Assembly: GCA_030268105.1 (NCBI GenBank)
Contig: BSDZ01000089.1
Span: forward strand, 2,542,001-2,606,000
Reading direction: 5' to 3'
Length of the DNA stretch: 64,000 nt
Source of the DNA: Volvox africanus
Taxonomy: Eukaryota; Chlorophyta; Chlorophyceae; Chlamydomonadales; Volvocaceae
Shown: positions 20,556-51,224 of the stretch, piece after piece
How positions within the stretch are numbered: the first letter of the stretch is position 1
Layout: every line of letters begins with the position of its first letter
Translations under genes and position numbers: made by a program
Notes under the pieces: model-generated
Database searches by the model: none
Told to the model about the DNA's origin: nothing
What the model saw: the letters and a program-made list of their open reading frames with translations, nothing else

Positions 20556-23497
20556 ATGCTCTACCAGGGGCAGTGCTCGCTGCAAATATGGTCGTCCCGA
20601 CGGCTGGTCTCTTGCAAGGCCAAGGCCAAAAGCGCAGGCCGCAAGACGACTGGCAAGGGCTTCGGACCAGCGGTAGCTTCCGCATCCCCAATACCGCAAA
20701 AGCAACGCAGCATCGAACTGCGAATACTCGACGACTTACCATCAGTACTTATAGACCCTGCGTCGGAGATTGACGATAACACATTTAACTCTTGCTTGTT
20801 TTACATGAACAAAACGGAAGAGCTTTGTGGGCGACTCCCGAAGCTGTTGGACCACGCCTGGACTCAGGCGACAACCTATCGCATTCAAGACTGCCTGACG
20901 CAGCCGGTCCTGCTAGCCTCCCCTTCTCACACAACTGCGCTGCACATCCTCAGCGTTAAGCATGACGACCCCTACAACCCAGCCATCGTCGCCGCCGTCT
21001 GGGACCGCATGAAGCCTGATGCCGTGGCCCTCGACGTGCAGCCTCTTTACCCCAAGTCCTTCACGCGGATGGCCAAGGCCATGGACTCTCATATCCTAGA
21101 TAAGCTCCTGGCTACACCCTTGACGTCGCTGGCAAAGGCCCTGGAGCATGCCGACGACATCGACCGGTACGCATCTTGTATGGGTTCCAACTTGAGACGC
21201 TCGAGCTGGTGCCCGCTGCAAGTCGGGGCGCTTGTTGACCTGGGTCAGTGGATGATTTGTGTGGCTACTAGGTCTGGCAGTTGGCTGGCGGCTTAGGAAT
21301 ACTTTTATTCCGGTGTTTTAGTCGTTCTGTTGAGTGTGTTCCGTTGGCTTGCTCGTGAAAGTCCTCAATATGTCACAAAAAACCGTCCTGTAACGGAACC
21401 AGGTCTATTGTTTTATTCAACTATTTACATTTCCCTCTGTCGGCACATTTAATTAATCATTGTATTACGGAACTAAAACCCGATAATAAACCCGATCCGG
21501 ACTCCAGGTTGCGCTGGCACCACGCCATCCTGCAGGTGGTGGGCCAGGGTGCCAGCCCCATCCTGGTGACCAAGGCAGCCCTCTTCAATGTTTTTGCTAA
21601 CCGAGACCTGTACCTCAGTGAGGCCATCACCGTGGCTCATCTTGCTACGAAGGGGGCAGTAGTAGCAGCAGCAACAGGAGGCACGAGTGGACGCAATGGC
21701 AGCGGTCCTATCCCTGTTCATGGGATAAGTGTGGAGGTGGGGCAACGTGGAAAACAACGGACTCGATCACATAGACCTACCGGCGGTGCATATGGACCAC
21801 GACCTGTAGATTACGCGTTACCTGACAGCTGGATAGCGCCCCACCAACATGCAACGAATATCTCATCTGGGCGTCATTCTTGACTTATCCTTTACAGCCA
21901 TGAGTAGGGGTAATGAAACCGGGTGATGCGCCGGGCTTAACCGGATTGCGGTGTTGGTCGGCCTCGAGTGGAAATTTGGGACTTCAAAACCTCCGCTCGC
22001 TATTGCTGGCTTTCGGCGGCATGATGCATGTCTTGTCTGTTGACTGCCACTGCTGCTGCGTTACGTCTGCTTTCACTTGACGTCGCTGCAAATGGCGCCG
22101 CTTAAGGGTTTCATTTGCTTCACGTCGCTCCTTTGTTTTGTGCCGGACCTCTCCCGTATCGTTGCAGGATCCCGTCATGTTGCAAGCTCTAGGCGAGGAT
22201 GATTTCTGGACAGAGCAGGACAGTACGGCATACAAGCAGATGCTTCTCAACGCCGCTGACCCGCAGCTGCGGTCCACGGTCAACACCTGGTTGCAGGTCC
22301 GCCATCGCCCGTACTTTGGAAGAGAAGTTATTTATTGGACTACGGGCGGAGCGCAGTGCAATGCTTGTCTTCTTGTGCTTTTGTGGTTTCAACTGTGTGT
22401 ATGTGTAAAAGGGCACCGTTTCTGCGTTCCTCGCAATGGTGGACGTGAGAGGTGTCGCGGAGGCGTTAAGCTTGCGTTTGTGACGTTGCCTGGGTTCATT
22501 CGTACTCATACTTTCCTGCTAGCTATTTAACAAATGTGTTCTGCGCTTCTGCTGCTGCGCTCACACAAAACTTCTCGCCTGTAGCCTCGCGTTATCCTAA
22601 TCTGAGGTGTTCATGTTGCCGCTGAACTCGTGGCCGTTAGTTGTATCCGGCGCCATCTGCTCTGTGGGTGGCAGTGCTCCCGCCCTTGCCAGGAACAGGG
22701 CACGTGATCTGCATTTATCCCGTGGGGGCAAACCCTGCCTCCCGTCAGTTCCTTTCTTAACACGCACGCATGTACATACGCACTTAACTTGCTCTGCCCC
22801 TACTTTAATCCTAGTGGACATTCCCGGTTCCGCCATCCCGTCTCCCGTATTGCACATGGAGACTTCAGGGCATTCCCGTCGGCACCTCGACCTCCGCCCC
22901 GCGCCAACGCTTCGTGCTCAGCCGGCTGGAGCAAGCGCTCAACCGCCAGCAGGAGGAGGATCACTTGGTGCGTTAATTGATTATGGATAGGTCTACCTGT
23001 ACGTGTTCCCGGACAGAATTTGGAAAGTTTGAAACATGTGGTTACAGGCCTCGTGCCATGCGTTTGCGTAAAGCGTGAGTGGCACACGTCTCCAATTTAA
23101 ATGGTTGCGCTGAGAGCGAATCCTTCCTGCGTCCACACGGCTTAGGACTTCATTGCTTTCGATAGCACGGCATAGCTAACCCTTGCCCAAGCCGCCGTGT
23201 CCGCGCCCATGCCTTGCGGTTCCACAGCTGGCATATGACGCCTACCGTTCCACTCATTCAGAGCTGCGCGTGCGAAAGCAATTGCAGCTGGAGCATGAGC
23301 AGGCAGAGCACCACCTTGCTCGATTGCGGGACATCGCTACTGGTCGGCTCGGCGGCCGGAGGTGCAGCCATCTACTGGCGGTGATGAGAGCCGAGCATGC
23401 GGCACGGGTACGGCGGCTGGCGAAGGTGTCAATGGACGCCGCTGTTGACATCGCTGGTGCTGGTGGCAGAAGTAATAGCAGCAGTGGCGGCAGATGA
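20556..23497 (+). CDS. TraB/pheromone-shutdown-like protein, probably organelle-targeted
   Basis: Exons 20556-21166, 21508 to about 21631, 22168 to about 22296, 22869-22967 and 23228-23497 join in phase to about 410 residues. The first 45 residues are rich in Arg, Lys, Ser and Ala without acids, as in an organellar transit peptide. Then comes ALHILSVKHDD followed by a proline-containing helix and WDRMKPDAVALDV. This resembles the TraB start, a strand ending in a His-containing turn and then a 'lkPdvValEl' strand. The end, RRCSHLLAVMRAEHAARVRRL, could match the family's 'VVGxGHxxGI' region, though the glycines are missing. The middle is charged and helical. The 3' ends of exons 2 and 3 are chosen by phase and use weak donors (GTGGCT, GTCCGC); a stronger donor at 21618 breaks the phase. 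The family call is tentative; the coding status is firmer. Confidence 0.5.
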
Positions 23498-36786: not shown

Positions 36787-39664
36787 ATGAGGCGCCAAAC
36801 GATTAACTGTCTTCGTGGCTTATGGCAGGCACAGACTGGTGAGTTGCCAAGAGACTTTGCTACGCGATGGGGTTCCGAGGTGCGCAGAATACTCGTAATG
36901 CAGGTGCCAGCAGCCGTGAGGCGAATAGTCAGACTGCAGCCATTACGGTCGCGGCACAGGCCTTGCTTGGGCAGCAGGGGCGCAGTCTGCGGACGAGGTA
37001 CGTCGGCTTTGCATCCTGGCTCCGTTCGGCTTTTTGACATTGTCGTAAACAGTAATCTTATCTTGGCAGCTCTTTGGAGAAACCTTCGCGGATTGCGACG
37101 CTATCGGCTCTGCCCTGTTCTTTGCAAGCTGTCCGGACAGCGACGGTGGAGGCCCTTGTTCCCGCAAAGGTTAACAACTTCACCCTCAACTTCGGGCCGC
37201 AGCATCCCGCCGCCCACGGTGTGCTTCGTTTGGTGCTGGAGATGAACGGTGAAATTATTACACGCGCTGGTAGGAGCGTTAGAGCCTTGGTTTGGAAGCG
37301 CAGAAGCTAGCACATTTCACAAGCGCAACCCCTTTCCGCCGTGTGAACAGACCCCCACATCGGCCTGCTCCATCGTGGGACGGAGAAGCTGATTGAGTAC
37401 AAGACGTACCTGCAGGCTCTCCCATATTTCGATCGCCTGGATTATGTGTCTATGATGTGCATGGAGCACTCGTACGTGCTGGCTGTGGAGCAGCTGCTGA
37501 ACCTCGCTGTCCCGCTGCGTGGACAGTATATCCGCGTTCTATACAGCGAACTCACGCGCGTGTTGAATCACTTGTTGGCAATTACCTGCCACTCTATGGA
37601 CGTCGGGGCGTTGACGCCTTTCTTGTGGGCCTTCGAAGAGCGTGAAAAGCTTTTTGAATTTTATGAGCGCGTGTCGGGTGGGTATCGTGAAATTCTCATA
37701 GGAAGTGGCGACGGATGTGCCAAGAAGGTTCCAGAGACCCATGGGCCGGGGTTTCATAGTCGCGTTCTGTGCGCTGGGCAACAGGTGTGTCCCGTGCACA
37801 GGTGTATCCCACGCACATTAGAATGCCCTCACGGTGCATAGGCTGTTGTGAGCAACAAACACACATCAGCCCCATGCCTTCGGCATCACTGACGGACATT
37901 AGATTAACATCTGTGCGCGCATACGACACCCCAAAACGTTCTCATGCCTGCGGGGTCACGCTGTCATCTTGGACAGCTGAGCTGTTGTACGCAGTAATAG
38001 CTGCAAGCTAATTAGGCCTGTCAGTTCAAAGTTTTGGAAGTTGGAATACTCTTCTTAATATAGTACCATTCTCCTCCTCATTCGTGAATTCTCCTCTTGT
38101 GCCTTTCCCTCCGCAGGTGCTCGGATGCACGCAGCCTACTTCCGAGTAGGTGGTGTGGCACAGGACCTGCCAATTGGCCTGCTGCGCGACGTTTACGACT
38201 GGGCGCGCCAATTCAGCAGCCGCCTGGACGAAATTGAGGAACTGCTGACGGGCAACCGTATCTGGAAGGAGCGCACCATTGATGTGGGCACCATCACGGC
38301 GCAAATGGTGGGAATGGGAACGGGTCTTGGGATTGCGGTAGTGGCATTTGCGACTGAAAATGTCTCGGACTAAGTTGAACATAAAATATACAGTAAACTA
38401 CGTATTCTGTGGAGAGTTGCAGATTCGGAACCCCCAGATGTGAAAGTAGGCACTAAGGGGATTTTACGTGCAGTGGGGCCAGAGCGGGTTGGTTTTGGAG
38501 GGTTTTATATATGGGCCGGCCTGGGCGACTATGAAGTTACTTGGCCTAGGCGAGCTGGGGAAGGCTGTTACAAGGGTGGAGTTGATGGCACAAGCAACAG
38601 CTTCTGCTGTTCTTTTTGGAATGCTTGTGGGTGCACGGCTCAGCAAGGTGATTATCGGCCTCATGTTGTTTTAGACGGATACGAACCACGAACATCCCTC
38701 CCAGTGCTGCAGCCAACTAGATATAATGTATTCGTAAGCATGGGTCTCAATGCAAGATGAATGCATAAACTTGATATGGAGTTGAGATAGAGCTGAGATG
38801 GACTCGTGCGTTGTGGGCTCGCTTGCAACGCATAAGGTGAACTGTATAGGACACCTCGCGATTCGTTTTGATTTCCAATCGATTCGTCTTAGGTGGTCGA
38901 TAATCCAGGATGTACCCTTTCAATTAATTTCGGAACGCAGGCGTGGGACTGGGGCTGCTCGGGTCCTATCCTGCGCGCCAGTGGCATTGATTGGGACCTC
39001 CGCAAAACGCAGCCGTACGATGCGTATGGTCGCATGCAGTTCAACGTGCCCATTGCGGGCCACGGTGATTGCTACGATCGGTACTTGGTGCGGCTGCAGG
39101 AAATGCGTGAGAGCTTGCGCATCATATACCAGTGTCTCAACGAGATGCCGGACGGCCTGTACAAGAGTCCCGACGCTAAGGTTAGCGATTGTTAAGTGTG
39201 TACAGGAGTGTATGCCATGTAACAAACCAAAATTGCATAGCGTAAGTAGTACGACACAGCTGCAACCAGGTGAGGGCCGCCGCCTCACTTCCGAGGCATA
39301 GGGTTCGGGTTCATTAACCCAAGGATCGAGATTCATCCTGGACATGGCGTGTCCGCAGGTATGCCCTCCCAGCCGCTCGACCATGAAGCAGAGCATGGAG
39401 GCGCTTATCCACCACTTCAAGCTGTACACTGAGGGCTTCCACGTGCCGGCCGGTGAGACCTACCGCGCGGTGGAAGCGCCGAAGGGCGAGTTTGGCGTGT
39501 ACCTTGTGTCACGTGGCGGCAATCGACCATATCGGTGCAAGATCCGCTCGCCGGGTTACGCGCACCTGCAGATGATGGATGTCATTAGCAAGGGTGCGAT
39601 GCTTGCGGACGTGGTGACCATTATTGGAACCATGGATGTGGTGTTTGGAGAGATCGACAGGTAA
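36787..39664 (+). CDS. NUO7: NADH:ubiquinone oxidoreductase 49-kDa subunit (complex I, Nad7/NDUFS2)
   Basis: Subunit of the mitochondrial complex I peripheral arm that lines the quinone-binding cavity next to cluster N2. Exons 36787-36838, 36904-36997, 37070-37269, 37351-37677, 38117-38307, 38941-39180 and 39359-39664 join in phase to 469 residues. The first 60 residues ([18 protein letters not shown] and on) are a mitochondrial presequence. Family landmarks in order are [127 protein letters not shown] and the C-terminus [10 protein letters not shown]. The length fits a complete subunit. Nad7 is nuclear in Chlamydomonas but mitochondrial in land plants. Odd points are RVGGV where the family usually has RPGGV, and [12 protein letters not shown] where GTRGDCYDRY is usual. 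Confidence 0.96.
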
Positions 39665-41045
39665 AGGGGCCAAGACGAGACTGCGGCTTAATTGTCTTCT
39701 TGCCTAACTGGGGCGCCGATGGGGGCAAATGGAGGCATCTACTCCCGAGCCACCCTATACGGCTGCTTGAAGTCTCGGCGTTTTTCCTGGTGGCTAAGGC
39801 GCTAAGGATGACACTTGGAAGGGAAATTGGGGTCCTCCGAATAGGAAAGGTAAAGTGTAAGGATTTTAAAGGATGTTGCGTCCCATGATCTGCGTGGAAA
39901 GGTAAGCGTAAGGGGCAAGTTCTCGTGAACCGCAGTGGCTGTCGCGTCCTGTAGTGTGGTTTAAGTTTCCCACATCTTGGTGCAAACGCGAGGACGTGGA
40001 TGTACTTGGCACGGGCCTGCGGCCCTGGTCCCCTGGACGAAGGTCGCTGGTCTCGCTTTGTTTCCTATCTTGAAGAGAGAAGAAAGTCTTTTAATGGCCT
40101 CTTCCTTGTATGGGGGATGGATCTTGTTCCAATTGCGGTGTCTGGCTTGAAAACCTGACAGTTTTTGTGTAGACAGGCAGATGGTTTACAAAGTGTTGTT
40201 ACATGCCGATATTCTGATGGATTTAGGAGCTTTGATGATTGCTTATTTAGCGAACATAACAGGGACTTGCTGCTTGGTAGGTTCCAAGTGCGTTTGGCGA
40301 TGCAACTGCTCACTCATCTGTTACCCTGTGCTTCTTCGTATTGAAGTAGATCCGCTAACATTGTTGTATTGTAGTAAGCGCACTGCAATTCAGCACACGA
40401 AGGGTCAGCAAGCTCCAAAATGTTGCACGACATTGTGCACGACAAGCAAAACGACATTGCCAGAACGCAAGCACGAACGCTATATTCGTTTGACTCTCAA
40501 ATTTGCCCTGTCTTCATAGGGGTTAAAGGAAAGTAGAGCAGGCGTAGACACATTAAGCGTGAAGAAAACTTTATGAAATGCACGAATTAATCTCGCACTG
40601 ATGGCATATGCTCATAGCGCAGGCCTTAACTACGATAATTGCTGCGGTTTAATCGAGCGGCTTTGTCGACGCAGTGACCCTCCTCTAAATAGCTGCTTCC
40701 TCCGGCTGTTCTGTGACCCACGGACTGACAAAGGGTGCGGTGCTGTTTTTGGAAGGAAGTCATTGACAGCTTTTTGAGGAGTCCGAGGTTCATCAGCCTG
40801 TCGGCGCCCTGCCTTAGGGCTGCTGCACACGGGCTGCACACCTTGATATGGAGAATGTGGTGATATCAAACGACAGGATTTGTTGAAGGCACGTTTTGCC
40901 GAAGCCGGCTGAAGCATAAGCTGATGCCCAAGGTAGAGCCTGCAAAGCACTTTGGTTGGGCCATACGTTTACCCGGATATTGTTCGACTCAATAATAATG
41001 ATGTCTACGGCTTGATATTGTGTGTCAGGGCAGGGCATCTCCCGA
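39665..41045. other. Intergenic region between NUO7 and the kinase gene
   Basis: Holds the NUO7 3' UTR at its left end and probably the kinase promoter, perhaps with an upstream kinase exon, at its right end. Frames at 40181-40519 and 40630-41386 have no recognisable family features. I see no RNA gene. Confidence 0.4.
39856..39860 (+). terminator. NUO7: Candidate TGTAA polyadenylation signal of NUO7
   Basis: TGTAA lies 192 bases past the NUO7 stop codon, the spacing typical of volvocine nuclear genes. Confidence 0.5.
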
Positions 41046-44000
41046 ATGCAGCAGCAGAAAGATATGGTACCTGCCGCGGCCGATTCCTCGGCTGAGCACA
41101 GAGTAAGTAAAAGCTTTGTGTTGTGGTTTGTATGCCCACGTCGATGCTGGCGCGATGCTTTACGTACCATGGGTATGTGTGTGCGTGTGTGTTTTGCAGC
41201 TGGCTCCAGTGATAGCAGGTCAGGATTTGGCCTCAGCTGTGATTCAGGATACGGTGAAGTATCTGGGCATACAGGCGACGAGGATTTCCAACTTGAACGG
41301 CCCATATCTGCAAGTCCGTCCAGTAAGTTGTAACCCGAGGGAAAGAGAGCCAGGCGCGTTTGGGGACTATTGGCCCAGTGTTCCATTTCTCACGCGCTTC
41401 ATCGGATTTATGCAACGAGATTAAGAATGCCGATTTGGGTTGGCCGTCTGGGTCAAAGATGGGCTGCTGGTGGCTAGGACGTGCCCTCTGGGGCGCCATG
41501 AAGTGTCGTGCGTGTGATGACTACTTTGGACGTCTCCCTTGTCTGTGTTATTCAGGCTGGAATTAGCGCAACGGACATATTGCTGGTGGGCAGCTGGCGG
41601 ACGCACTTTCCGCCTGGAGGAAATGCCAGCGGGGCCGTGCTGCACAATTTGCAACCGGCATTGCCGAAGCCATTGCCGACGGCGATACTTTGGCAGGCCT
41701 CAGGAAGCGACTGTGTGCAGTCATTCGAGGGGACACCGGGCGCACCGGCTGTGACGTATACTCGCCTCCTAGCAACACCGAGCGCGGCAGCAGCATCTGC
41801 AGCTGGCTCTGGCGATCCTGAATTCGGCAAGCCTCAGAGCCCGCGGATCCAAGGATTGGGGGATAATCTAACAGCAGTACAATCTGGAGGCAGGATCCCA
41901 GATATGATGAACCTGGATTTCATTCCGCTTGATCATCCAGCGCCGGCGGGCGCAGTTACGGAGCTGCAAAGCGTCATCAGTACACGGCAGGGGCCCATAA
42001 TCGAGGAGTGCCACTCCGATTCGGAGGCCGCAAATATTGGAGCTTGCACCCGCAGTCATTACCAGCATACGCACAAAGATGAGCATCGTCATGATTGTGG
42101 TCAGCATTCCCAGCAGGACAAAGAAGCATCCATCAGGCAGATAGATTCACCTGTGGTGGCTGCAGCTGACCCAGATCGCATGATGGAGGAAGTGCTGGCA
42201 ACGGAGCGAATGCAGCCGGAGGCTGGATGTGGTCAACTAATATTGGACGCTGATCGTGAGCCTGGGGTTGGTAAGGCAGGCCTGCCTCACAGAGGGCTTG
42301 GACAAAATGGCCGCGACGGACAGTTGGAAGGTAAGGACATTACAAAGCTGATATCTCCCAGGTTACGTGTACTGAAAACTACACGTTATTATTGCTCGCC
42401 CAAAGGCGAGCAATAATGGTAGCTAATAAGGCAGGATTTTTTTAATTTTGTGTTACGTGTATCCAAGGCCCGTGTATGCAGAGGCAAATGACGATCGGGG
42501 TAGAAGTAGATGTCACATTAAGATGCTAACTGTGGATGTCGGGCTTGGGGTCGTTTGTACCTGATTGCTGAGCAGCAGCATGTGTTATAACTGCAAATTT
42601 TGAAACGTGATGTGGCGACATGTGCTTCAGCATTGACATATTTTTCTCCACTTGCGCGCAGGTCCAGGATTGGCTATGGCGGGGGCCCTAGCATTGACAG
42701 CTGCAGTGCAGGCGGGGGCTGCTGGCGTAGCCCATTCAACCGCCGTCGTTCCTGTCGTTAGCCCGCTGGTAGTAAGCCCCCGACCCCGATCCGAGTGGGA
42801 GCTAGATCCTGTCAAGATTGCTATTTTGCGGAGATTGGCCGTCGGCGGATTCGGGGAGGTCTTCCTTGCCAAATACGAAGGCACGCTGGTGGCAGTAAAG
42901 CGGCTTCTGGCAACCGATTCCGGTAGGTGGTTAACAAGTGTGGCCGACGGCAGGCGAGAGGATTGGTATGGTACACAGACTGAGCGGTAGGTACGGAGCG
43001 GATGCGAGTGTGATGGCTCGTACATGGCTTTTAGATCAGAGGGTCGCGCAGCATGGCTTCGTGCATGATAGTTTTGCGTGGCCCGCCACCCATTTGCCAG
43101 GGTTAATCCTGACCAGTTTTCTTACATGATAGAGATATGCTTGCCCGCGCCTTGAATTCAGACACGACGCAACGGTTCGTGGATGAGGTCCACATGCTGG
43201 CACGTCTTCGCCATCCTAACTTGCTACTGGTACGTGACAAGGACTTGATAGCGGCATGTCCTCTAGCTGTCAAGTTTTCTGGTGAAGATCCGTCCACCAA
43301 TTTCAGTTTTAATGACCTCACGAATCAGTTGTTATCAATACAAACGGGCAAGTTTTGATCTCTCTCTTCCTTGGCCCCACAGTTCATGGGTTACACGCTG
43401 ACGCCCGAGCCGTCGATCGTCACGGAGTTCATGGCGCGTGGCAGTCTTTTCCACATTCTGCGGCAAGCTGGGAACCTACCGCCGGACCCCAGGATGCAGC
43501 GTGCCGTAGCGGTAGCGGTGGCGCGCGGCATGGCCTATTTACACAGTCGGATGCCACCCATCCTGCACCTGGACCTGAAGAGTCCCAATGTGCTGGTGGA
43601 TGACCGGTGGAGGGTGAAGATTGCAGGTATCTTAAGTATCAAATGGAAATGCACTGGACCATACTGTGCATTTCATGCTAGTATTTCAAGTTGCTTGAAG
43701 GGAAGGGTCCGAGTGCAGATCTGCGCTTTGGCGACTTGTGGATGGGTGGATGAGCCTTCACATTGTAGGTCGCGGCGTAACGAGTTCTGCATCGCGCCAT
43801 CACTGGAAGTATACTTCTTGTGCTATGATAATAACCTCAAGCTCTGCCCCCATTACCAATGTTTTCGTACAGATTTTGGTCTGTCACGTGTCCGACAGCG
43901 GACCTATGTGTCATCAGGTGCTGCCGCTGGGTCACCAGAGTGGATGGCACCCGAGGTCCTCCGATGCGACCACTTCGCCGAGGCGGCGGACGTGTACAGG

Positions 44001-47000
44001 TCAGGACCGAATGGGCGAAGGAATAAGGTATTGAAACCCTCAATCCTTCAGTAGTGTTCGTTATGGATGGGCGCGTCCATTCAAATGGTGCAGAAACGTT
44101 CTTGGACGGGTATGTCCAGCTAATATGGCATGCGGTGTTTGCTCCCTTGATCAGGCAACTTTCATGTCACAAAATTCAGCTTTGATCAATTTAATGATTA
44201 GCGATGGTACCCTTTTGTACTTGACCGTTTGCAGTTATGGCGTAATCCTGTGGGAGCTGCTGACAGGACAACCGCCGTGGGCTGACTTAAATGCCATGCA
44301 GGTGAGCAGATCTTTGCGCAGCTCCTAACGCAGCCCCAGAACACGTCCTTGCCTGAATTATTATGTCATGCAGCTACCATGTCCAGGAAGGCCGTTTGGC
44401 TTGTGCACTTGGTATAACGCACTAGCGTTACCGGTTCACTTATCATATCATGTTCCATGAGACATAGGCAGAGCGACGCACCGGGTTTAATATCTCTTAT
44501 TGTGCTTACTCAGTCCCGCTCTGTGCTCTCTTCGTGTGTTCTCATCCATACTGTCCTATGCGTAGGTAGTTGGAGCTGTGGGCTATGCGAAACGCAGCCT
44601 GCCGGACCCTCCCGAAGGCGACGCCGTTCTGCTGCAGTTATGCAAAACGTGTCGCGCCTACGAGCCTACGCAGCGGCCAACATTTGCTCAGGTGGTGGAG
44701 TCACTGGAAAGCCACTTGAACCCCTCTTCAGCATTGCCCAGGAACGGCGCCATTTACGGAGGGGAGGCGACGGTCGTGCCTGCTGCATTGCAGCCAGCTG
44801 CCGCCGGGACAAGGAACATGCGTTTAGCAGCTCTCCCAGCTCCAGAGCAGCTAGCAGCTCCGCAAAGTGAGCGCACTTCGCTGCTCGCATCTGCAGCTGC
44901 GGGCGGCACCGCCATGGATCTTGGCGGGTTCGTTGGTGCATCAGCACCACTGGCTGTCTCCGCGACATCTGCTGCAACACGAATTACCCGCCGCCACAGC
45001 CTTGCTGCCAGTCCCGACGCGGCTGACTTCCTCGAATCTGCTGTCCCGACCAGTGCAGCACGCGATGGCGGCGGGAATAACGGCAGCTCCAGCATCGGCG
45101 GGGGTTCGACGCGTCTAGACGCGCAGTTTGTTTCTGTTCACGAGTCGCCGCGGTCGCGTCGCCGCTATCGCAGTCCCCGTGGAGAGGATATGATGGGTCC
45201 GCCGGCCATCACTGCGCGGCTGCAGGACGGCCGGAAGACTCCTTCTCCAAGGACGTCTGGAGGTTGGTCGTGGCAGGCCTTGTCAGAAGGCACCAGCGCG
45301 ACGTCTGATGGGAAGTCGGTTGCCCCGGTGCAGGAGCAGCGGACGGTGGCTCCCAGCGTGCGACTGGCGCATGCAGCTGCATCACCGTTTGCCGCCATAG
45401 CCGCCACAGACTTCGGACCGGATAGTGCGCGAAGCCTGCGCGTGCTGCGTGCGGATGTGGCTCGCACTGGACCTGTGGACAGCAACTGCGGCGGTACTGG
45501 CAGTGATACACGTGAAGTTGCTGGCAATATTATGTCGTCAGTGGAACCACACCCGAGAAATTCCGCTAGCCCTTTGGTGCTTACTACGCCGGAAACACTA
45601 CCTGCAGCAGGGACGCCAGGACCGCTGGCGTCGGTACCGGATCAGCCGCTGTGTAGGTCGGAGCTTTTATCCCAACCGTCGACATCAGTGAACGTGGAGG
45701 GGATCGCCCGGGATGAGGTTGCGACTGCGGTGCTGCAGCATAGCATCCAGCCTGACCCAGAGATCTGTGGTCGGCCCTTGGCTAATGGCCAGCATGGCTA
45801 TCTGCAGGATTTACCTCAGCATAGGCATCAGGAGTTGTTACCGCTACAATATAATAGACATCAGCCGCTATGGCAGGCGGAGCAGCAGCTGGACCAGCAA
45901 ACGGAGCAGCAGCCGACACAGCGGTCGATCAACCGTGAGCAGGATAATCAAATAGCACAGCAGCACCGACAAGAGCCGCGTCTGCAGCCTGAGCAGGTCA
46001 TTGGAAATACGTTCTTGACTCGACAAATGTTGTCGGGCCGCGAGGACAGGCGCCCGGGTCACCGCCGCGTTAGCAGTGACGAGGCGAGCCGCATGCAACA
46101 TCTTAACGCTACGATGCATGCGCCCACGGCAGCCACCGCACCTGGCACCTTTGTCACCGTGGCCGGGGTTATGCCGTTACATAACCAACACTCGCATCCT
46201 CAGCAAAGCCTCCTGGGCATTGCGGGGAATACAGGACCTGCTTCTACTGTTGGACATGCCGCGGGCGGCGCCGCAGGCAGTGGCAACATGCCACCGCTCC
46301 CAGGGCGACGGAGCCGCGGTCTTGCGCGCAACAGCGCACCAATGCGGTACACTTATGGTGGCGCGCCGTCAGGTGCTGCAGGCGCACAGCAGCCGCATCC
46401 GTTACAATCCCCGCCACGCCCCAGGTCATTTCACGGGCAGAACCTTACTCCAAACGTGCACCAGCATGTGCTGACAGCAAATGCAGAGGCGGCCACTGGG
46501 CCGGCAGGTTATGGCCGAAATCAGCCGTCGCATTTGGGCTCATTATCGCTCTCTACGCCTGGCGGATGTAGTAGTTTAACGTTCGGCGCCGCAGCAGTTT
46601 CAGCTCCGATGTCACTGAGCCCCATGTCCGAAGGCGGCATGTCTTCCTTTGAGGGCGTAGGATCACGGCCATTTTTTGCAGCAGGAGATATACGGGACAA
46701 GGATTTTATGGCTGCGGGTTCAGGTTCTTGTGGTGGTGGCGGTGGCGTAGACCCCTGGCCGGATACGCATAGCGAGTTGAGCTTTGCGTTCATCCTGCGG
46801 GACAACGTCAGCATTTGCTCGGATGATTATATGCAAAGCGCGTCGCTTGACAGGCTGCCACTGCTAGAAGAAAATGTGATGACGGTAAGCCCATGGGGCT
46901 TTTGGGCGTAGCTGGGGACCAAGCAGTTAGACGCAGGGCGGCTGGCGGGAATGCCTTCGAATCAGGTGTAGCTGACACCTTTTATGCAGTTATGGACTGA

Positions 47001-50000
47001 GCACATGCAGGTGGCGTTCAGATAAATTCATCAGGGAAAATATATACGTGCTGTCCGTGAAATGTAAATTACCTTCAATTACTTGCCACCTACCTCCTTC
47101 CTCGTGCTTGAGCACGAATAACTTGTGCACCTGCTTTGCCATGATTACATCATTGTAGGATCCTGCCGGTGAAGATTCGGATGGCGTCGTGGAAGGTGAC
47201 CCAACGGCTATACCTCAGCCGGAGGCAGACGCAGAGATTAGGGAGAGGCCCGCAGGAGGCTTTGAGAGCGCCGGAGCGAACACTGATAGCGACTTCGAAT
47301 TGCCGTGCCCTTTCCTGAAAGCTAACCAACCGGCAAACCCGCAGGATTGCGGCGCCATAACGTTGTCGCCCTTTGCGTTGGAATGCACGCCGTGGGCAAC
47401 GACTGTGAACAACCAAGACAACGTGCCAACATCGGAGGCGGGTCTTTGGGGCGCTCTGCTTGCGCGTAATTCGTCCGAGAATGGGCTTGGACCTGCAGAT
47501 AATCACCCCGGATTACAAGCCAATCGCGGGCCCGACTCATCTCGGCCTGATCAAGTTAACAATAGTGTTGCCAGCCCTTGTAATGACGGAGGAGATGTTC
47601 CGGCAAGATCTGGGATGCAGTCACAGGGCTCCTCCTTGCATCCACAACGGTTCGATGAGGACAGCCACGGTCAGGTGCAGCTGCAGTCAAAAGAGTGCTG
47701 CGATCAGGTAGCCGAGAAGCCGCAGCCGCGTCCGCACAGTGGAGGTGGACCCACCACATACCGCAGCGGCCGCTTCAAGGTGACAATCGAGCCCGCATGC
47801 TCAGAACCGCAGCCGTTGCACCATATCTCTTTGCTGCAGGCGAACCATGACTTACAGCAATCATCAGAGGGGCAGCCGCTGCAACATTTCCTCTCTCTTC
47901 CCCAAGGGCCCTGTTCCGCAGCGGTGGCACAGGCCGATCCTGGGTGCAAGACATGCAGGAGTCCTAGTAAAACGCTTGCTGCAGATCCTGTCGGAGGAGG
48001 AGCATCGGGAATGCCAGTAGAAAGCAGCAATATTACGCCGGTGTTGCAGTCCTTGTTCCCATCTGGCGGTTCACGCGAGGTCTCGCTGGGGAATAGAACG
48101 ACCACCACGGAAATGCCCGACAGCTTATGCGCACAGCTGCAGCGACAAACAGGGCTCACGCAGCCCATCGACAATCGCCCATCCTCAGGCGCAAGAGGAG
48201 CCAATGGAATCGGCAGCAACGAAGGTTGTGGTGCATCGCCCCAGGGCTGTGCAGCTTTAGCAGTTGTGAGTCCTTTGGGCGAATCGCCGTGTGGCGTAAC
48301 TGGCAGGTTGCGCAACGGTCACCATGGACACAACATGCATACTCATCATCCTCACGGAGAGCTGGCGGCGGGACCACCGGTAGCGCTCAACAGCGTTACC
48401 ATGTATCGGAAAGGCCGCTTTTTCGTCTCTCACGCTGCGGCCGGCACGCACTCACTCTCCGTAATCAACCCCAATGCAACGCCAACCCCAATGCAACATC
48501 TCAATGTCGGGTGCGGAGGCAGCAACGGCTGCAATGGCACAGGAGCCTCAGTAGGCTGCCCAGTGAATGAGTCCGTGGCGGAAGAGTCTGAGGACCACGA
48601 TGGAGCTTGCGTCCCCACCTCGCCATTTTCTTGCGGCGCCGTGATGACAGCGGCATGTGAGCGGCCTGGCAGTCAATCAGGCATGGAGGGGAGTGTATCT
48701 CAGCAACAGGGCATTGCAGCCAAGCATACGTTGTCCGTATTGGCGTCCCTGGTGACCGCGACTGATTTGACGCGCACGAACTCCAGTAGGCAGTACAGCA
48801 GAGGGCGGTTCACGGTCGCCGAGTCCATTGTGGCGGCGCCTATTGCAGAACCACGTCGGTCGTTATCCTGCAGCGCAGGTGGAGAGCCTCCGACAACCGC
48901 AGCCGACATGGTCTGGGCCATAAAACCGCCATGCTTGCCGGCGGCTGCTACGGGCCTTGGCGCCGCGACGTCTTCATCAATAGTTGTTCCCATCGTTGAC
49001 TCCTTGGACGGCCTTGGCAGGAGGGGTAGTACCTTTCTGAAGGCCGAGGCATCCATGTCGACGTGCTTGATCCCTATGCAGACACCTCTCCTGCAGGTAG
49101 CGCAGCTTCAGACCGCGCCTTCCTGTGAAGATACATCGAACGGGCAATTGGTGGCATCCGCTTCTCAGCCCGCCACAGGTGGAGTCGATATAGGGGCCAT
49201 GGGTAGTGGCAGCGGTGGTGGGGGCCCGGGTGGTGGCAGTGCTCTAAGCATGGCGCCTACAAGTCCCCGAACTGAAAACGTGGTCGTGCGGCGCATTGGA
49301 AGATTCACCGTTCGCGAGGTGGAGAGTGGCTCGAATGCATCAAGCCGGGGTCCGAGCAGCAGTGGAATCGTAGCCGACGCAGCTGTGCGTGGAGACCTGA
49401 ACCCAAATGCTTCAGGTGGGTTGGGATATGCCTGGATGCATGGTGAGTTGGTTTATAGCGCCCATGAGCAGGTGTAGGCAAGTAAGACGAGGCCGAACGT
49501 TGCCGTGACCGCGTGCTGGACACGTGGACCCAGGAAGGTTGCTGCTGGACGTAGGAAGCATTCCTAGCTACTTCATGAGGTCAGAACTTTGTGGTGTAAA
49601 TCCACCTGGCTTTACACTCGCCACTGTCTTGCAAAATATATTTTTGCTATTCGTCCGAAGCTTTGCTGTAGAGGTACCAAGTGTGTACAGCGCCTACCCG
49701 TTTGTGCTATCCGCCTTGTTTAAAGTGTTGTTTGGTACTGAATGGCATGATGCACAAAGCTTGGTGGTTAATTCGCGGTTTTCATATGGATTTCTAGCAG
49801 GGCAAGCTGCTGCGAGCACTGGGATATCTCTGGCGGGCAACAATGGCGATGGCTGTGCCGATGTCGTGCATGTACAAGGGCATGGGTCGCCACCCAACGA
49901 AATGGTGGTCCTAAGCAGCCATCACAGCAGCAGCAGCTTCGACTCAGCTTCTGGATGCAGTCGCACCAGCTCTGAGTCGCACGGCTTGAATGCCGACCTT

Positions 50001-51224
50001 CCAAAAATTCAATTAGTGCAGCCTCAAGTGCAGTCAGCGCGGGGATCAAAACAGCTCGAGGATGGTGGAGCTGCAATGCCGCAGCAGCAGCCAGCAGAGG
50101 GAACGGAGCAAGATGCACGTTCTACCGTTCATAATGCACTGAAGGTTATGCGCGTAAAGAGCAAGGGGCGGTTTACGGTGATTGATTACGAGGCCGCCCC
50201 AGCGCTGCAGCAGGAACAGGAGGAACAGCAGCAGCTCAGCGAAGACCGAGCAGGAGATCTGGCACCTCGTCCCATAGCTCGCCGCAATGACGTTCCTGGT
50301 TGTACCAACTTACGGCCTATAGCCGGCGAAGACTCGTCGATCCTCCAATGTCAAGCGGCACCTGCCGATTCCTGGTGGTCAAGAGAGTTTGTGAGAGAAC
50401 CGGTTCAGAGGCGGTGGATCGGTGGGCAAAGCACCGAAGGCGGCAGGACCCCGCACGGCGGCGTACTCCAACCGCCTCCTGGGATTTCGTTACCTGCTCA
50501 CTGCCAATGGGGTCGGGCAAGTGAGGAAGCTGAGGATAACGTTGTAAATGCTCCCCCGGTACAGGGACCCCGGTGCATATCCGATCTGCAGGCACCGGAG
50601 CAGCGCGCGCAATTTCTTGCGGATATGGAAAGATTGGTGCGAGAGCGCATGGAGCGCAATGCGTTGGAACATCAACGGCGGCAGGAGCCCGTCCAGCAAA
50701 TGCACCATCGACTTGGACAGCAGGCAGTTCATCAGGCGGGGTCATCGTTTCAGCAAGGGCGACAAGGGGCCAGGGCGGAAGGGAACGGCCTGGGTGAACG
50801 CTGCACGTACAAGGTCTCCTTCGGCGATGGGCTAACAATACATATCAGCCACGGTCTGGACGGCGACGGGGAGATGGCTGAGGAAGGGGCCGAGGATGAG
50901 ACCGAGAATGATGATGCAGTCATGGTGGACGTTGGCATTGTTCACGGGGACGTAGATGGTGACGATGGCAGTCAGAGCGGCGACCCTGCTGAAGGAGAAC
51001 AAGGGGAAGATGAAGTTGGCGCGGATTCTGATAATGAACTGCAGCCACTACAACCGCCAGATACTCCAGCCCACGAGCCTGTGCACGAGCGAGAGCGGAC
51101 AGCTTGGGGCTCTGCTGAGGAATGCCCGGGTGACAGGCGGTGGCGGCGGCGGCTGCACCGGCATGGCCTCGGTGGCCATGGGACAGGCGACAGCAGCGAT
51201 TACGAGGATTCAATGGAGGTTTAG
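41046..51224 (+). CDS. TKL/Raf-like protein kinase with giant RFxV-bearing tail
   Basis: Exons 41046-41102, 41200-41322, 41556-42330, 42662-42922, 43135-43229, 43383-43626, 43873-43999, 44235-44301, 44566-46884, 47159-49442 and 49801-51224 join in phase to about 2,591 residues. The kinase domain is at about 370-630: loop AVGGFGEVF, VAVK, helix C FVDEVHMLARLRHPNLL, HLDLKSPNVLV, DFGLSR, WMAPEVL, VILWELLTGQPPW and YEPTQRPTF. This pattern is TKL/Raf-like. Residues 319-350, just before the kinase, are Ala-rich and hydrophobic and could be one membrane helix; what precedes is unrecognised. The tail of about 1,960 residues is low-complexity (Gln-, Ser- and Gly-rich, acidic near the end) and holds five GRF[TKF]V motifs. 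The start ATG is uncertain, since the frame stays open upstream. The HRD Arg is Leu. The last three exons are linked by phase and strong donors; separate genes are possible but less likely. Confidence 0.8.
42388..42417 (+). other. Perfect 13-bp inverted repeat (hairpin) in kinase intron 3
   Basis: ATTATTGCTCGCC at 42388-42400 is followed by a CAAA loop and its exact reverse complement at 42405-42417. It lies in the intron 42331-42661, about 57 bases after the donor. In RNA it would form a stable short stem-loop. Confidence 0.85.
47768..50180 (+). other. Array of five dispersed GRFxV motifs in the kinase tail
   Basis: Motif codons are at 47768-47782 (GRFKV), 48413-48427 (GRFFV), 48803-48817 (GRFTV), 49298-49312 (GRFTV) and 50166-50180 (GRFTV). 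Most are preceded by basic or Tyr residues, as in TYRSGRFKV, MYRKGRFFV and KSKGRFTV. The surrounding sequence is not repeated, so the motifs look individually kept. In animals RFx[V/I] is the docking motif bound by the CCT domain of SPAK/OSR1 kinases and is found in WNKs. A docking role here is an inference. Confidence 0.75.

Follow-up and report, generated by a model that had tools for sequence, protein, structure and literature searches.

A conserved array of five RFxV-type motifs in the tail of a volvocine Raf-type kinase as a candidate dock for WNK CCT domains

The long tail of a Raf-type kinase in Volvox africanus carries five short motifs of the GRFxV form, and these have been kept in related volvocine algae while the sequence around them has diverged. 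The gene lies in a window of 64,000 nucleotides (contig BSDZ01000089.1, positions 2,542,001 to 2,606,000 of the forward strand), which is the whole stretch of DNA that was analyzed. Animal RFxV peptides connect WNK kinases with SPAK/OSR1 and with ion transport. We propose that the algal tail is a multi-site dock for the CCT domains of WNK kinases, a reading to which we assign a probability of about 0.58 and in which we infer the binding, the partner, the signal and which of the kinases acts on the other.

The 11 exons of the gene (Table 1) translate into 2574 residues that are identical, letter for letter, to the deposited protein P0001 (VaNZ11_014968, Volvox africanus), and thus kinase and tail belong to one gene. 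This rules out a separate non-kinase gene as the source of the tail, and agrees with the preliminary description, which had attached the tail to the kinase. Among solved structures, the kinase domain is nearest to Arabidopsis CTR1 (3ppz, 240.7 bits, with 172.2 for the best chain not named CTR1), which places it beside the CTR1/EDR1-type Raf-like kinases. In contrast to these, the EDR1/CTR1 domain PF14381 is absent from P0001 and from two of its relatives, P0007 and P0069, in which the kinase is the only domain found (Pfam, E 0.1), and a long motif-bearing tail stands behind the kinase. PF14381 is annotated on plant relatives, for example P0008 and P0009. Because it was not found in P0001, we label the protein, from its sequence, as CTR1-like by kinase domain only. 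Matches in NCBIfam were limited to kinase models, all far under their cut-offs. Comparison of the tail with a phage collection returned no match, and no paralogue of the tail exon was found in the V. africanus genome (141 Mb).

Table 1. Positions of the kinase gene, its exons and the conserved elements of its tail within the window
Feature	Position	Strand	Details
TKL/Raf-type CTR1-like kinase gene with long tail	41046..51224	+	11 exons, GT..AG introns
Exons 1-6	41046-41102, 41200-41322, 41556-42330, 42662-42922, 43162-43229, 43383-43626	+	
Exons 7-11	43873-43999, 44235-44301, 44566-46884, 47159-49415, 49798-51224	+	
Kinase-domain exon stretch	42790..44730	+	about residues 362-629; PF07714 at 372-621, E 2.7e-55
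Five other conserved short tail blocks	45139..46803	+	HESPRSRRRYRSPRGEDM, LQDGRKTPSPRTSG, RRPGHRRVSSDEA, LARNSAPMRYTYGGAP, VDPWPDTHSELSFAFILRD
Docking motif 1, GRFKV (YRSGRFKVTIEP)	47768..47782	+	residue 1551
Docking motif 2, GRFFV (YRKGRFFVSH)	48413..48427	+	residue 1766
Docking motif 3, GRFTV (QYSRGRFTVAES)	48803..48817	+	residue 1896
Docking motif 4, GRFTV (VRRIGRFTVRE)	49298..49312	+	residue 2061
Docking motif 5, GRFTV (VKSKGRFTVI)	50166..50180	+	residue 2223; last exon

All five copies in P0001 have the core R-F-x-[V/I] of the CCT-binding motif. They were recovered with the same letters and at the same positions (47768-50180) as in the preliminary description, whose estimate of a span of about 680 residues also fits, the motif starts running from residue 1551 to 2223 of one protein, as does its remark on a basic or Tyr-rich local context, the left flank of each motif being basic or containing tyrosine. 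Scanned in six frames, the window has two more GRFxV, at 40276 (+), where the gene model does not reach, and at 21388 (-), between stops. An array of this kind could as a rival reading arise by chance in biased sequence of low complexity, and the tail of 1947 residues after the kinase domain is indeed compositionally biased, with 78% of it made up of the disorder-promoting residues A, G, P, S, Q, T, E, K, R, D, N and H. However, exons 9-11 encode 2008 residues, for which the expected number of GRFxV is 0.015, and none of 20000 shuffles reached five RFxV (maximum 3). Simulating the whole protein as first-order Markov chains gave a mean of 0.047 GRFxV and a maximum of 2, with 0 of 5000 chains reaching five.

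Conservation bears on the same question. The homologue search used residues 340-2590 of a preliminary 2593-residue gene model that differs from P0001 in two splice choices. This tail-containing query recovered P0002 (V. africanus, 87% identical), P0003 (V. reticuliferus), P0004 (Pleodorina starrii), P0005 (Astrephomene gubernaculifera), P0006 (Tetrabaena socialis, partial) and P0007; P0001 to P0006 have five GRFx[VI] each and P0007 has four. Querying with the kinase domain of P0007 added P0069 (3075 residues, five motifs), while no motif occurs in P0068, a shorter kinase relative (1296 residues). Among the 169 listed proteins, comprising all 61 matches of the first search and the best 120 of 316 of the second, five motifs are present in seven, four in one, one in seven and none in 154, giving eight array-bearing proteins (P0001-P0007 and P0069). 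Orthologues from Chlamydomonas, Gonium and Edaphochlamys were absent among the matches listed, in searches that took similar-length proteins only.

Six of the eight array-bearing proteins, all volvocine and two of them from one species, were aligned. Of the 50 positions in the five 10-residue motif windows, 40 are invariant, in comparison with 35 of 320 in the near flanks and 16.5% of the whole tail, and none of 100000 random sets of five tail windows was as conserved as the motif windows. This is the pattern of kept motifs and diverged flanks that the preliminary description had proposed to look for in orthologues; with rows that are related, two of them from a single species, it is to be read as conservation within one clade. 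The chance rival is refuted by this test, its remaining probability being practically nil, and a chance origin of the array is excluded. Outside the volvocine rows, P0007 and P0069 keep the motif core. In a peptide alignment of the motifs from five of the eight array-bearing proteins, G-R-F is invariant and is followed, after one variable residue, by V or I. The flanks are also site-specific, with the colinear pairing with V. africanus scoring best of 120 for both Astrephomene and Tetrabaena; for P0069, the colinear pairing is not the best, as eight of the 120, itself among them, reach its score or exceed it. Ten tail blocks have at least 8 of 10 positions invariant, five of them being the motifs. 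Among the other five blocks, RRPGHRRVSSDEA and GRKTPSPRT resemble phosphorylation or 14-3-3 sites.

A spread of the motif across other V. africanus proteins was considered and rejected, because pattern counts in the genome are not above those of reversed controls. Bare GRFxV occurs 2929 times in the whole genome versus 4498 times in the reversed control. The longer pattern YRxGRFx[VI] occurs at 10 genome places (15 in the control), with two of the 10 in frames longer than 100 residues, both of them belonging to the kinase gene. KGRFTV has five genome places (10 in the control), of which two are in such frames, one of 571 residues in the kinase gene and one of 103 residues elsewhere (L015). As a separate observation, the glycine-rich loop of the kinase domain reads GRFKV in five of the best 120 WNK homologues (P0238, P0240, P0245, P0251 and P0253), which is a chance likeness within a folded kinase domain.

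The preliminary description had proposed to search this genome for CCT-domain kinases, and the OSR1 CCT model PF12202 does score over its cut-off at two genome places (L001 and L002), with none in 14 control genomes. The partner that it had favored, a kinase of the SPAK/OSR1/Fray type, did not appear among the few candidates scored; both clear CCT places adjoin WNK-type kinase domains instead, which makes a WNK the likelier reader. At L002, the CCT domain follows the kinase domain in one open frame that corresponds to P0170 (VaNZ11_004586, 422 residues), and at L001 some 1.1 kb separate it from the end of the preceding kinase domain, in a longer WNK-type gene. A query with a WNK kinase recovers both CCT regions. 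No SPAK/OSR1-like STE20 kinase with a CCT domain was seen in a six-frame search in which few candidates were scored, and nothing in the genome exceeded the cut-off of PF24889. A weak CCT-like stretch (L020, G000:C8:2632381-2632518; PF24889 E 0.83, in a 97-residue frame) is located about 10 kb from the L001 CCT, and is perhaps a neighboring second long WNK or a remnant.

P0170 contains a kinase domain (PF00069) followed by a CCT domain (PF12202), both over cut-off, and its homologues (the best 120 of 1075) are found across chlorophytes, the top matches including sequences from Gonium, Pleodorina, Chlamydomonas reinhardtii and Edaphochlamys. Across the chlorophytes of this sampled set, P0170 to P0289, the common form is a compact WNK, some 420 residues long, whose single CCT domain stands at the end. 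In the sample, a simple expression matched the CCT core of 43; 14 segments were used for a CCT profile and 67 hand-picked proteins for an alignment of the groove. The 14-segment profile matches WNK2 (6elm/6fbk, 1.3e-4), WNK1 (0.0021) and WNK3 (0.014), then SPAK (0.015) and OSR1 (0.067), with an unrelated FliG chain at E 0.66. The matched 6FBK holds the CCT-like 1 domain of WNK2 with an RFXV peptide of WNK1 (PMC12266122). In the predicted structure of P0170, the domain spans residues 331-416 as strands followed by two helices, with a mean pLDDT of 69-90 by tens of residues. The first Foldseek match of this model is the WNK3 kinase-CCT1 didomain (5o2c), aligned over 421 columns at an rmsd of 14.1, a value at which the two domains are not superposed in one pose. 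A second structural comparison aligned the kinase part alone, leaving the CCT domain outside the alignment. P0170 resembles this WNK3 didomain in having a kinase followed by one CCT domain, yet differs in its length of 422 residues and in having a polar or small residue at the Leu473 position (OSR1 numbering) across the 67 aligned homologues.

In these 67 rows, the core near T-D-T-E-I-C-A-A-A-L is almost invariant. The positions of OSR1 F452, D459 and E467, which we take to contact the bound peptide, are Phe in 67, Asp in 67 and Glu in 66, respectively, while the F454 position is Phe or Tyr and Ile, Leu or Met occupies the L468 position. None of the 67 has Leu at the Leu473 position, which is mostly Asn or Ser, and the Phe before it and the Leu after it are present in all 67. 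In OSR1, replacement of Leu473 with Ala cuts binding over 100-fold, and the WNK4 peptide GRFQVT is seen bound in the OSR1 CCT domain in 2V3S (PMC4512625). The algal CCT domain, judged from these alignments, retains much of the groove with its floor changed, and the changed floor speaks against the OSR1 binding mode having simply been copied.

In the reading that we propose, each of the five RFxV peptides would occupy the groove of a CCT (PF2) domain, with the compact kinase-CCT WNK (422 residues) and the longer WNK-type gene as candidate readers. By avidity, the tail could gather several WNK molecules beside the Raf-type kinase, and one kinase may therefore regulate the other, or both may be brought to shared targets. 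The motif form supports docking, as it is that of the GRFQVT peptide bound by the OSR1 CCT domain, whereas the Leu473 position, never Leu in the 67 algal WNKs, stands against it, as do the motif-free relative P0068 and the lack of motif enrichment across the genome. WNK homologues are spread over many chlorophytes, while every array recovered belongs to a volvocine alga or to P0007 or P0069. Because the compact WNK is far more widespread than the array, its CCT domain should either bind other ligands as well or be tied less strongly to the array.

Three rival accounts concern what the motifs would bind. They might dock the CCT-like domain of a missed SPAK/OSR1-like STE20 kinase, as in animals. 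The PF12202 search ran exon by exon in six frames with three candidates scored, so an intron-split CCT domain could escape it; against this, PF12202, PF24889 and WNK CCT queries led to the two WNK places and the weak L020 (E 0.83), and we regard such a partner as improbable. Binding to an unrelated domain, for example an undescribed one, with the likeness to the animal peptide arising by convergence, is the strongest of the three, and still unlikely. An invariant G-R-F with V or I is already a tight motif in itself, and the floor of the algal groove is unlike that of OSR1, which both favor convergence; the form is nevertheless identical to that of a known CCT ligand, and the Phe, Asp and Glu positions are intact in the algal CCT domain. 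Very little weight falls on the idea that the kinase is a MAPKKK whose motifs serve as docking (D) sites for MAP kinases or MAPKKs, even though basic residues precede F-x-V and EDR1, a relative, interacts with MKK4/MKK5 in Arabidopsis (PMC4022593). A D-site expression matches one of the five motifs and nothing else in the tail. Moreover, D sites are not known to require an invariant G-R right before the hydrophobic residue.

Docking to WNK CCT domains would have both parallels and differences in animals. The RFxV motifs of animal WNKs, bound by the CCT domains of SPAK/OSR1, have the same core (PMC4512625), and mammalian WNKs, like the algal gene, often have several motifs in a long kinase tail (PMC10593226). 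Unlike in the animal system, the bearer in the algae is a CTR1-like TKL kinase and the likely reader a WNK instead of SPAK/OSR1. TSC22D proteins, which bind the CCT(-like) domains of NRBP1 and WNK4, offer a precedent for a protein other than SPAK/OSR1 being tied to WNK through CCT-like domains as proposed here; TSC22D2 binding is lower when the CCT-like domains of WNK4 are mutated, and such contacts bring WNK4, SPAK and TSC22D2 together in condensates in animal cells (PMC12266109). In vitro binding of motif peptides has also been shown for the WNK1 CCTL1 domain (PMC12266122). As adaptors, TSC22D proteins carry an RFxV plus RWxC set, in contrast to the algal kinase with its five GRFxV. The preliminary description had called the algal scaffold independently built, which holds for the array on a CTR1-like kinase and fails for the CCT reader, because animal WNKs bear CCT-like domains too. 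Tentatively, and with slightly more doubt than confidence, we suggest that the RFxV-CCT code either predates SPAK/OSR1 or does not depend on it, and that a green algal WNK CCT domain directly reads the five-site array of a CTR1-like Raf-type kinase, forming a WNK-Raf module with no STE20 go-between.

In the open-access literature, we found no paper on RFxV motifs in algae, and searches combining RFxV with plants or Arabidopsis, WNK and CCT listed animal papers. For WNK in Chlamydomonas or Volvox, or together with Raf-like kinases, kinome surveys and reviews were listed. In the available text of PMC12266109, the sole mention of Arabidopsis is a Cry2 tool, and that of PMC8415026 mentions none of SPAK, OSR1 and CCT. 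A conserved five-site array on a Raf-type kinase presents a concrete candidate ligand for the CCT domain of a plant-lineage WNK, in algae amenable to culture and transformation, would if true be the first ligand proposed for such a domain, and bears on the age of the RFxV-CCT docking code. Plant Raf-like kinases are reported to activate SnRK2 kinases under osmotic stress (PMC11897469).

Near the C-terminus of the kinase gene product, the block RCTYKVSFGDGLTIHISH (window 50799-50852) is alike among the aligned volvocine rows and has no family match. Upstream, at about 36900-39670 on the + strand of the window, a neighboring intron-split gene resembles, as we read it by eye, the NADH dehydrogenase 49 kDa subunit (ND7/NuoD).
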